Of a stretch of DNA of 64,000 nucleotides, positions 28,048 through 47,581 are shown piece after piece. The notes beneath the pieces were generated by a model. That model was not told where the DNA came from. It did not search any database and saw only the letters and a program-made list of their open reading frames with translations. The position numbers and the translations under genes were made by a program. Within the stretch, counting starts at the first letter, position 1. Every line of letters begins with the position of its first letter. The stretch comes from Sphingomonas morindae (GTDB lineage Bacteria > Pseudomonadota > Alphaproteobacteria > Sphingomonadales > Sphingomonadaceae), in the NCBI RefSeq assembly GCF_023822065.1, contig NZ_CP084930.1, positions 2,806,001 through 2,870,000 of the forward strand, given 5' to 3'.

Positions 28048-28644
28048 GTGCCGCCTGACTTTTTTCACGAGCGACAACATGCACATCCGGTCGCCGGCGT
28101 GGACGAGGCCGGGCGCGGCCCGCTGGCCGGGCCGGTGGTCGCGGCGGCGGTGGTGCTGGATCGCAAGCGCGTGCCGCGCGGGCTGGACGATTCGAAAAAG
28201 CTGGACGAGGCGGCGCGCGAGCAGGCCTATGCGCGCATCACGCGTCATGCCGCCTGGGCGGTGGGGATCGCGGAGGTGGACGAGATCGATCGCCTCAACA
28301 TCTATCATGCCACGCTGCTCGCCATGACGCGCGCGGTGGACGCGCTCGGGCTCGATCCGTCGATGGTGCTGGTGGACGGCAATGCCCTGCCCAAGTGGCG
28401 CTATGCCGCGCGCGCGATCATCGCCGGGGATGCGCTGTGCCGCTCGATCGCGGCGGCCTCGATCATCGCCAAGGTGACCCGCGACCGGCTGATGGCCGAC
28501 TATGACGCCACCCATCCCGGCTATGGCTGGTGCCGCAACAAGGGCTATGGCACACCGGAGCACAAGGCGGCGCTGGCGCGGCTGGGGCCGAGCCCGCTGC
28601 ATCGCCGCAGTTTCGCGCCGGTCGCGCAGCTTTGTCTCTTGTAA
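28048..28644 (+). CDS. rnhB: ribonuclease HII
   Basis: 198 residues with a GTG start at 28048 (AAGG about 10 nt upstream). Motifs: '[22 protein letters not shown]' (catalytic Asp-Glu pair), '[11 protein letters not shown]', 'VDGNALP' (catalytic Asp) and '[15 protein letters not shown]' plus '[15 protein letters not shown]'. It cleaves RNA of RNA-DNA hybrids, including single ribonucleotides in DNA. The neighbour downstream is ccrM, the order seen in other alphaproteobacteria. Confidence 0.95.
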
Positions 28645-28658
28645 AACGCGCGCCTTTA

Positions 28659-28748
28659 GAGTCCGCCCTCCATGTCTCTATGGTGCCACACTAAGCGACT
28701 CGTGGGAATCCCCCGATTTTTTTGTTGACCGCCGAGTCGCGTCGACTC
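28659..28748. promoter_or_regulatory. cluster of five GANTC (CcrM) sites in the ccrM upstream region
   Basis: GANTC occurs at 28659-28663 (GAGTC), 28697-28701 (GACTC), 28706-28710 (GAATC), 28734-28738 (GAGTC) and 28744-28748 (GACTC), all in the 141-bp gap before ccrM. A TTGACC at 28725-28730 is a good -35 candidate; the -10 about 17 bp on (CATTTT) is weak and directly abuts the last GANTC. That layout fits a methylation-sensitive, GcrA-type promoter as known for cell-cycle genes of Caulobacter. The sites are directly visible; the control is inferred. Confidence 0.7.
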
Positions 28749-28770
28749 ATTTTGGGCGCTCTCGGCGTAG

Positions 28771-31030
<2,260 letters not shown>

Positions 31031-31034
<4 letters not shown>

Positions 31035-45519: not shown

Positions 45520-47403
45520 TCACTGGCAGGCGAGGCACTCGTCATAATCGGTCGTCTCCACCTCGATCTTCTTCAGATCGATGGTGTTGTCCGCCTCGAC
45601 CCCACCGGCGAAGCCGGCCCGCTGCACGGATTTGGAGCGGAGATAATAGAGCGACTTGATGCCCAGCTCCCAGGCGCGGAAGTGGAGCATCAGCAGATCC
45701 CATTTCTCAACATCGGCGGGGATGAACAGGTTCAGCGACTGCGCCTGATCGATATAGGGCGTGCGATCCGCCGCCAGTTCGAGCAGCCAGCGCTGATCGA
45801 TCTCGAACGAGGTCTTGTAGCAGTCCTTTTCCTCCTGGCTGAGGAAATCGAGATGCTGCACCGAGCCGCCGCGCTCGAGGATGGTGTTCCAGACGGCGTC
45901 CGAATCCTTGGATTTGTCACGCAGCAGCTGCTGGAGATAGGGATTCTTGATCGAGAAGCTGCCCGACAGCGTCTTGTGCGTGTAGATATTGGCCGGGATC
46001 GGTTCGATACAGGCCGAGGTGCCGCCGCAGATGATCGAGATCGACGCGGTCGGCGCGATCGCCATCTTGCAGGAGAAACGCTCCATCACGCCCTGGTCGG
46101 CGGCATCGGGGCACGGCCCGCGCTCATGGGCGAGCAGCATCGAGGCCTCGTCCGCCTTGGCGCGGATGTGCCGGAACATCTTCAGGTTCCACGACTTCGC
46201 CATGGCGCTTTCAAAGGGCAGGCCGCGCGCCTGGAGAAAGGAGTGGAAGCCCATCACGCCGAGCCCGACCGAACGCTCGCGCGACGCCGAATATTTCGCG
46301 CGCGCCATGCCATCCTCGGCGCGATCGATATAGTCGCTCAGCACATTGTCGAGGAAGCGCATCACATCCTCGATGAAGCGGCCGTCGCCGTGCCACTGGT
46401 CCCAGGTCTCGAGGTTGAGCGAGGAGAGGCAGCACACGGCGGTGCGCGCCTCGCCATTCTGATCGATCCCGGTCGGCAGCGTGATCTCCGAGCAGAGGTT
46501 CGAGGTCGATACCTTGAGGCCGACGTCGCGCTGGAATTTCGGCATGGCGCGGTTCACCGTATCGGCGAACACGATATAGGGCTCGCCCGTCGCCAGCCGG
46601 GTTTCCACCAGCTTCTGGAACAGCGCGCGCGCGTCCACCTCGCCGCGCCGCGAGCCGTCCTTGGGGCTGCGCAGCTCGAAGCTGCCGCCGTCGCGCACGG
46701 CTTCCATGAACTCGTCGGTCAGCAGCACGCCATGGTGCAGGTTCAGCGCCTTGCGGTTGAAATCGCCCGACGGCTTACGGATCTCGAGAAACTCCTCGAT
46801 CTCCGGGTGCGACACATCGAGATAGCAGGCGGCCGAGCCGCGCCGCAGCGAGCCCTGGCTGATCGCCAGCGTCAGCGAATCCATCACCCGCACGAAGGGG
46901 ATGATCCCCGAAGTCTTGCCGTTGAGGCCGACCGGCTCGCCGATGCCGCGGACATTGCCCCAATAGGTGCCGATGCCGCCGCCGCGGCTGGCGAGCCAGA
47001 CATTCTCGTTCCAGGTCTCGACAATGCCGTCCAGGCTGTCGGGCACCGAATTGAGATAGCAGGAGATCGGCAGGCCGCGCCCGGTGCCGCCATTGGACAG
47101 GACGGGGGTGGCGGGCATGAACCAGAGGCGGGAAATATAGTCGTACAGCCGCTGGGCGTGCGCGGCATCGTCGGCATAGGCCGAGGCGACGCGCACGAAC
47201 AGATCCTGGATGCTCTCGCCCGGGAGCAGATAGCGATCCTTCAGCGTCTCCTTGCCGAAATCGGTGAGCAGCGCGTCGCGGCCATGATCCACCTCCACCG
47301 GATAGGGCGCGCGCGGCCCGTCCGCGCGGGCGGGCGCGACGCCGGACTGGGCCTCGCTGGTCGCGTCGATCATGCTCGCCTCGCTGCTGCCTGCCAGATC
47401 CAT
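45520..47403 (-). CDS. nrdA: class Ia ribonucleotide reductase alpha subunit (R1), lacking an ATP-cone
   Basis: 627 residues from the ATG at 47403; the open frame continues 5' without family-like sequence. An ATG at 47373 is an alternative. Catalytic features: 'GLPISCYLNSVPD', 'SNLCSEITLPTG' (Asn, Cys, Glu of the active site), 'AVCCLSSLNLETW' and the C-terminal redox pair 'YDECLACQ'. Only about 50 residues precede the catalytic domain ('LLTDFGKETLKDRYLLPGES'), so no N-terminal ATP-cone is present and dATP inhibition by that route is not expected. Two NrdR-like boxes lie about 130 bp upstream. It reduces ribonucleoside diphosphates together with NrdB. Confidence 0.93.
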   Translation of the reverse strand: MDLAGSSEASMIDATSEAQSGVAPARADGPRAPYPVEVDHGRDALLTDFGKETLKDRYLLPGESIQDLFVRVASAYADDAAHAQRLYDYISRLWFMPATPVLSNGGTGRGLPISCYLNSVPDSLDGIVETWNENVWLASRGGGIGTYWGNVRGIGEPVGLNGKTSGIIPFVRVMDSLTLAISQGSLRRGSAACYLDVSHPEIEEFLEIRKPSGDFNRKALNLHHGVLLTDEFMEAVRDGGSFELRSPKDGSRRGEVDARALFQKLVETRLATGEPYIVFADTVNRAMPKFQRDVGLKVSTSNLCSEITLPTGIDQNGEARTAVCCLSSLNLETWDQWHGDGRFIEDVMRFLDNVLSDYIDRAEDGMARAKYSASRERSVGLGVMGFHSFLQARGLPFESAMAKSWNLKMFRHIRAKADEASMLLAHERGPCPDAADQGVMERFSCKMAIAPTASISIICGGTSACIEPIPANIYTHKTLSGSFSIKNPYLQQLLRDKSKDSDAVWNTILERGGSVQHLDFLSQEEKDCYKTSFEIDQRWLLELAADRTPYIDQAQSLNLFIPADVEKWDLLMLHFRAWELGIKSLYYLRSKSVQRAGFAGGVEADNTIDLKKIEVETTDYDECLACQ

Positions 47404-47533
47404 CTCTTCGCCGCTCCGTTCCTGATCCGTTCGACTCACGGCGCCGGGATTGCCCGGATGCCGCCCATCTCGCAATGCCTGTGTTCGGGGCACGGGACAC
47501 ACCGGACGGGACAGGGCCTCGACCCCACCGCAT

Positions 47534-47581
47534 CCGCTATATAGTGCGTCGCCCGCGCTCCCCCTACACAATGGCTTGTGC
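47534..47581 (-). promoter_or_regulatory. pair of NrdR-like boxes upstream of nrdA
   Basis: Two 16-bp sites start 32 bp apart: CCGCTATATAGTGCGT (47534-47549) and ACACAATGGCTTGTGC (47566-47581). Each matches 12 of 16 positions of the NrdR consensus acaCwAtATaTwGtgt as I recall it. NrdR boxes normally occur as two such sites separated by 15-16 bp, as here. They lie in the 343-bp divergent region between nrdA and the fumarase gene, so repression of nrdA by NrdR is expected; an effect on the fumarase gene is possible. Confidence 0.72.

Follow-up and report, generated by a model that had tools for sequence, protein, structure and literature searches.

A conserved cluster of GANTC sites before ccrM in Sphingomonas morindae, probably a methylation-responsive control region

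GANTC sites between rnhB and ccrM

The window, by which we mean the whole 64,000-nucleotide stretch of Sphingomonas morindae DNA analysed here, contains ccrM, the gene of a GANTC adenine methyltransferase, flanked by rnhB and folP. The first-pass annotation of this DNA had reported five GANTC sites within the 90 bp before ccrM. All five were recovered, with first bases at 28659, 28697, 28706, 28734 and 28744, and all are located between rnhB and ccrM. Two of them, sites 4 and 5, follow the TTGAC at 28725-28729, as had also been claimed for the likely -35 element. The features of the locus are as follows.

28048..28644, + strand: rnhB, ribonuclease HII (PF01351, E = 1.8e-42), the 5' neighbour, same direction as ccrM
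28659..28663: GANTC site 1 (GAGTC), without the extended GcrA motif YGAKTCG
28697..28701: GANTC site 2 (GACTC), 28 bp 5' of the -35 element; YGAKTCG match on the - strand
28706..28710: GANTC site 3 (GAATC), 19 bp 5' of the -35 element, conserved in the genus
28725..28730, + strand: -35 element TTGACC, of which TTGAC is aligned over relatives
28734..28738: GANTC site 4 (GAGTC), with an offset of +9 relative to the first base of the -35 element, within the spacer; YGAKTCG match
28744..28748: GANTC site 5 (GACTC), with an offset of exactly +19 relative to the first base of the -35 element; YGAKTCG match on the - strand
28748..28753, + strand: predicted -10 element CATTTT (CANNNT), after a 17-bp spacer from the -35 element
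28786..29910, + strand: ccrM, GANTC adenine methyltransferase (N6_N4_Mtase PF01555, E = 1.2e-68; RAMA PF18755, E = 1.7e-16)
29907..31034, + strand: folP, dihydropteroate synthase (PF00809, E = 1.4e-69), the 3' neighbour, overlapping the end of ccrM

The ccrM product has the traits of the CcrM orphan methyltransferases, an N6/N4 methylase domain and a C-terminal RAMA domain, and is near-universal in genomes of the family: in the genus all 10 genomes had the gene, in the family 296 of 297, and in the class sample 107 of 143. Further ccrM loci were taken from 80 named Sphingomonadales contigs. Translation probably starts at ATG 28786 and not at the alternative GTG 28777, because the same ATG is common to the aligned relatives. 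The genome also encodes GcrA (PF07750, E = 1.4e-38).

GANTC occurs 79 times in the window, or once per 810 bp, compared to about 274 times in dinucleotide shuffles; the motif is thus avoided, and the earlier expectation of about one site per 300 bp was too high for this genome. Avoidance fits the predicted methylation of GANTC by CcrM, and in Sphingomonas sp. AAP5 GANTC is m6A-methylated (PMC8067484). At the density of the window, five or more sites in 90 bp have a Poisson probability of 1.3e-7. Other 90-bp stretches of the window hold four GANTC at most, and that run of four is the tail of the ccrM cluster itself. It has been reported that GANTC is more than 1.5-fold over-represented in the intergenic regions of alphaproteobacteria relative to genes (PMC3973325), but an intergenic rate raised a few-fold leaves the cluster still out of the ordinary. 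Genome-wide counts were derived from pattern searches. Two triple-cluster scans, which cover gaps of up to 30 bp and are nearly exhaustive, turned up the same density, five sites in 90 bp, at a single other place in the genome: the small contig C3, which is probably a plasmid, carries a GAATC-rich, iteron-like tandem repeat (GAATCTATGAATCATTAGAATCTGAGAATC; G000:C3:54249-54625; L342, L349).

Conservation and geometry of the promoter core

A lack of enrichment in the ccrM promoters of relatives had been named at the outset as an observation that would refute methylation-based self-control of ccrM. Instead, the enrichment proved to be strong, so the proposal is not refuted on this ground. Upstream of CcrM genes there are on average 7.1 GANTC per 300 bp in the genus, 5.9 in other Sphingomonadales (family and order) and 4.1 in 27 class loci, against a background of about 0.4, taken from DNA downstream at these loci. 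In a second class sample of 59 loci, the corresponding values were 3.25 and, in the stretch further upstream, 0.20. Over 174 sphingomonad ccrM upstream regions the mean was about 6 per 300 bp, with up to 11 sites in relatives, and over 86 regions elsewhere in the class it was 3-4. Dereplication to 146 sphingomonad regions gave a mean of 5.8 GANTC, and 142 of these regions had at least 3. Sites 2 and 3 form a pair that the genus alignment shows to be conserved as GACTC-N4/5-GANTC (GACTC-N4-GAATC in the window).

Two of the sites are fixed relative to the -35 element. A GANTC at exactly +19 from the start of TTGAC/T (TTGAY) was present in 133 of the 174 sphingomonad regions and in 37 of 87 from the class, and most relatives have a partner GANTC in the spacer at +8 to +10. 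Apart from this partner, no other offset from TTGAY was occupied in more than 13 regions. Among the regions with a +19 site, an A at +24 follows in 99-100%; position +28 is a T in 60% of those from sphingomonads and in 100% of those from the rest of the class. Together, the +19 GANTC, the +24 A and the +28 T define a -10 element CANNNT with a 17-bp spacer, in which the last GANTC base is base -12. The same is found here, where site 5 contributes its last C as base -12 to the predicted -10 element and sites 4 and 5, in the spacer and overlapping the -10 element, are one helical turn apart. Such a core would predict a transcription start near 28760. Such base-pair-exact positions of the two core sites are hard to account for without function. 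The double core TTGAC-N3-4-GANTC-N5-6-GANTC has one match in the 4.24-Mb genome, at ccrM; over 25 genomes there were 23 matches, 17 of them at ccrM, and none for a reversed control pattern.

The single +19 geometry was also considered as a general signature of GcrA promoters in this genome but found no support there, with 7 matches genome-wide versus 2 for the reversed control; it therefore offers no calibration on other GcrA promoters. In about 49 of the 174 sphingomonad ccrM promoters, a DnaA-box-like element, TGTGGATA or TGTGGACA, directly follows the -10 element on its 3' side (e.g. upstream regions L107, L129, L139 and L143), and it was found in none of the coding controls.

Could the GANTC letters of the core simply be promoter sequence, with sigma or another protein preferring a GACTCA-like spacer and -10 region and methylation having little regulatory effect? 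In favour of this reading, site 5 ends on base -12 and is followed by a nearly invariant A, and some GANTC in Agrobacterium have been judged to be possibly just parts of the sigma-binding core promoter (PMC11514494). We nevertheless consider this explanation improbable. Only the N of the motif is variable, its four defined letters being kept; the spacer site shifts among +8, +9 and +10 yet remains GANTC, upstream sites without a core role are conserved too, and the double core hardly occurs anywhere but at the GANTC methylase gene itself. Still less credit can be given to the idea that CcrM, or a protein that blocks methylation, lands or is titrated at the cluster, which would then time local remethylation without being a GcrA promoter. 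Dense sites could slow full remethylation, and locally hypomethylated GANTC loci reportedly exist in alphaproteobacteria, but titration does not need two sites with base-pair-exact spacing from the -35 element. An origin by chance, by base composition or as a by-product of the tolerance for GANTC in intergenic regions, which are richer in this motif than genes (PMC3973325), is for practical purposes ruled out by conservation across hundreds of genomes, in which the sites stand in fixed positions and are 10-15 times as dense as in the background.

An NrdR-like module upstream of ccrM in relatives

Most relatives carry a further module, CCACNAGATATTGAGTC ... GACTCAACATCTTGTGG, about 60 bp 5' of the -35 element, which resembles a pair of NrdR boxes. 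NrdR boxes were first located at nrd genes in 24 genomes by the textbook consensus, and a matrix was then built solely from these nrd boxes (22 promoters). The sequences in this comparison are not phylogenetically independent. With this matrix, a box pair scoring above the 99% shuffle level was found before ccrM in 161 of 174 sphingomonads (about 92%). The centres of the two boxes are mostly 32-33 bp apart, i.e. 16-17 bp lie between the boxes, and NrdR binds and represses with spacers of this length (PMC12051234). The base pairs C4 and G13, which are critical for NrdR (PMC9110341), are retained in 152-156 of 156 ccrM boxes. GANTC overlaps 201 of 260 ccrM boxes (77%) and none of 44 nrd boxes. 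All 9 genomes in which nrdR was looked for have the gene; in Caulobacter, a strain with nrdR deleted is viable (PMC12186491).

In the class sample, the spacing of box pairs peaks at 31-33 bp (18, 12 and 9 of 86 regions), with mostly 0-7 at other spacings; the coding-sequence control gave 0, 0 and 3 of 141 at 31, 32 and 33 bp. In other orders, several boxes share sequence with the 3' end of rnhB, where ...PVHKIL... is encoded, so that coding constraint may explain part of this peak. The last rnhB codons in some of these loci (L067, L070, L285, L312) are CACAAGATATTG-like, with the codons ATA and TTG, and may contain an embedded NrdR box. Just 3' of the second NrdR-like box, many relatives have a conserved TTTCGTTC after a GANTC (GACTCCTTTCGTTC), in which we recognised no known factor's site.

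From these sequence data, we lean towards the view that ccrM belongs to the NrdR regulon in Sphingomonadales and, in a scattered manner, over the Alphaproteobacteria, and that with GANTC placed at C4 and G13 of the boxes, methylation and dNTP level may be read together. A rather unlikely competitor is that the inverted module of the relatives is a GANTC-based palindrome for another factor, e.g. GcrA dimers. The inner half of each box is indeed GAGTC or GACTC, and the commonest centre distance is 33 bp versus 31-32 bp at nrdA. This competitor is countered by the discovery of the module with a matrix made from nrdA promoters alone, by the fit of the GANTC-free outer halves to NrdR, by the retention of C4 and G13, and by the binding and repression seen with 16-17 bp spacers in the NrdR assays cited above.

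The window genome is an exception to the NrdR-type arrangement. At its ccrM gene we found no NrdR pair with boxes 14-17 bp apart; the best pair scored -7 and the best single box -0.4, where nrd boxes typically score 7-20. An NrdR-regulated ccrM promoter was accordingly rejected for this genome, on the pair score and on the genus alignment, in which it is without the upstream module. The gap between rnhB and ccrM is short here, and what it keeps is the core pair, the genus-typical GACTC-N4-GAATC pair 5' of the -35 element and one further site. As genus relatives carry the module, the cluster in the window is best described as the remainder of a larger regulatory region. Two features outside the ccrM promoter serve for comparison.

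45640..47064: nrdA (PF02867 match)
47534..47581, - strand: NrdR box pair before nrdA, with boxes at 47566-47581 and 47534-47549

Judging by this pair, the predicted NrdR control of nrd is intact in the window genome. In many sphingomonads the nrdA start is closely preceded by a conserved (C)GAGTCGAAC element, which in the window lies at 47433 (GAGTC) on the - strand, in the nrdA leader. Since nrdA is activated by CcrM in Caulobacter (PMC3973325), this leader element suggests that ccrM and nrdA may share both inputs.

Proposed control of ccrM and comparison with known systems

Given the class-wide enrichment and the fixed +19 geometry, the ccrM promoter is very probably methylation-responsive. 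The original proposal that ccrM is controlled by its own methylation thereby gains support, to which the GcrA gene also contributes; YGAKTCG fits three of the five sites (17 of the 79 GANTC in the whole window). We consider it probable that the cluster is a methylation-responsive control region that would give one self-limiting pulse of ccrM expression per replication round. Passage of the replication fork would leave the GANTC sites of the promoter hemimethylated. GcrA, bound to the sigma subunit of RNA polymerase, would then read the methylated spacer sites and aid promoter opening; ccrM would be transcribed, and the enzyme would fully methylate its own promoter and so damp expression. This would be the same type of loop as in Caulobacter, with more sites. 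In most sphingomonads, the NrdR box pair would add a second input, the cellular dATP/ATP state, whereas the window genome would have lost that module and kept the methylation core alone.

GcrA is the most likely reader of the methylated sites, a role that we infer from sequence. GcrA acts together with sigma-70 and relies on GANTC being methylated (PMC3667746, PMC7987155), and mutated GANTC sites cripple GcrA-dependent promoters by 60-80% (PMC3667746). The GcrA gene and GANTC between the -35 and -10 elements (+9, +19) are both present here, and in Caulobacter the transcription start sites that have a GANTC between -10 and -35 become active at 40-60 min (PMC4287350). The extended motif YGAKTCG, as quoted in PMC7987155, is the Caulobacter extension; among the 133 sphingomonad +9/+19 cores it fits only 15 and 4 sites, respectively, so the reader in sphingomonads may differ from Caulobacter GcrA. 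As to the direction of the feedback, we infer that the promoter is on when hemimethylated and off when fully methylated. If GcrA activates the promoter, feedback should be positive when the DNA is methylated; the Caulobacter model, in contrast, is hemimethylated-on and fully-methylated-off, and the sequence would fit either. In Caulobacter, expression from the ccrM promoter with its two GANTC is linked to the hemimethylated state (PMC10073500), and in the published model CcrM shuts itself off (PMC8865702).

For Caulobacter, autoregulation of ccrM by way of its GANTC sites has thus already been described. What appears to be new is the fixed class-wide geometry and the upstream composite NrdR-GANTC module of about 92% of sphingomonads, which is lost in the window genome; the open-licence papers that we searched contained neither of the two, nor any link between NrdR and ccrM. 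The Caulobacter feedback was proposed from two GANTC, and a ccrM core arrangement that recurs with base-pair precision bears on its generality and gives a precise prediction at +9/+19 for any alphaproteobacterium that has it. If the NrdR module is confirmed, it would be the first link, within the literature searched, between a dNTP sensor and an epigenetic cell-cycle clock, and would couple the methylation clock with the supply of nucleotides for replication. Genomes without the NrdR-like module, such as this one, are natural controls.

In its architecture, the module of the relatives resembles the NrdR operators of ribonucleotide reductase genes, with two 16-bp boxes that are 16-17 bp apart and keep C4 and G13; it differs from them in that it fronts a DNA methyltransferase gene and its boxes bear GANTC. 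The ccrM promoter of Caulobacter crescentus, compared here by its published description, likewise precedes a GANTC methylase gene, has the enzyme's own targets in the promoter and has been proposed to be under methylation feedback (PMC10073500, PMC8865702). That promoter is activated by CtrA and has two GANTC, compared to five in the window, where two sites are fixed at +9 and +19 relative to the -35 element. A CtrA-activated promoter of the Caulobacter type was not supported for sphingomonad ccrM, since the full CtrA site TTAA-N7-TTAA was found in 0 of 174 upstream regions. In 81 of the 174 regions (e.g. L123, L160, L181), CtrA-like TTAACC half-sites stand in the stretch that separates the NrdR-like module from the core, versus 1 of 114 coding controls; the ccrM upstream region of the window has none.

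The GcrA/CcrM-activated promoters of mipZ, podJ, ctrA P1 and ftsZ share with the present one a GANTC between the -35 and -10 elements, and at mipZ there are two juxtaposed sites (PMC3667746, PMC4287350). Unlike these promoters, the ccrM core combines an exact overlap of the +19 site with base -12 and a double spacer arrangement, which is essentially confined to ccrM.
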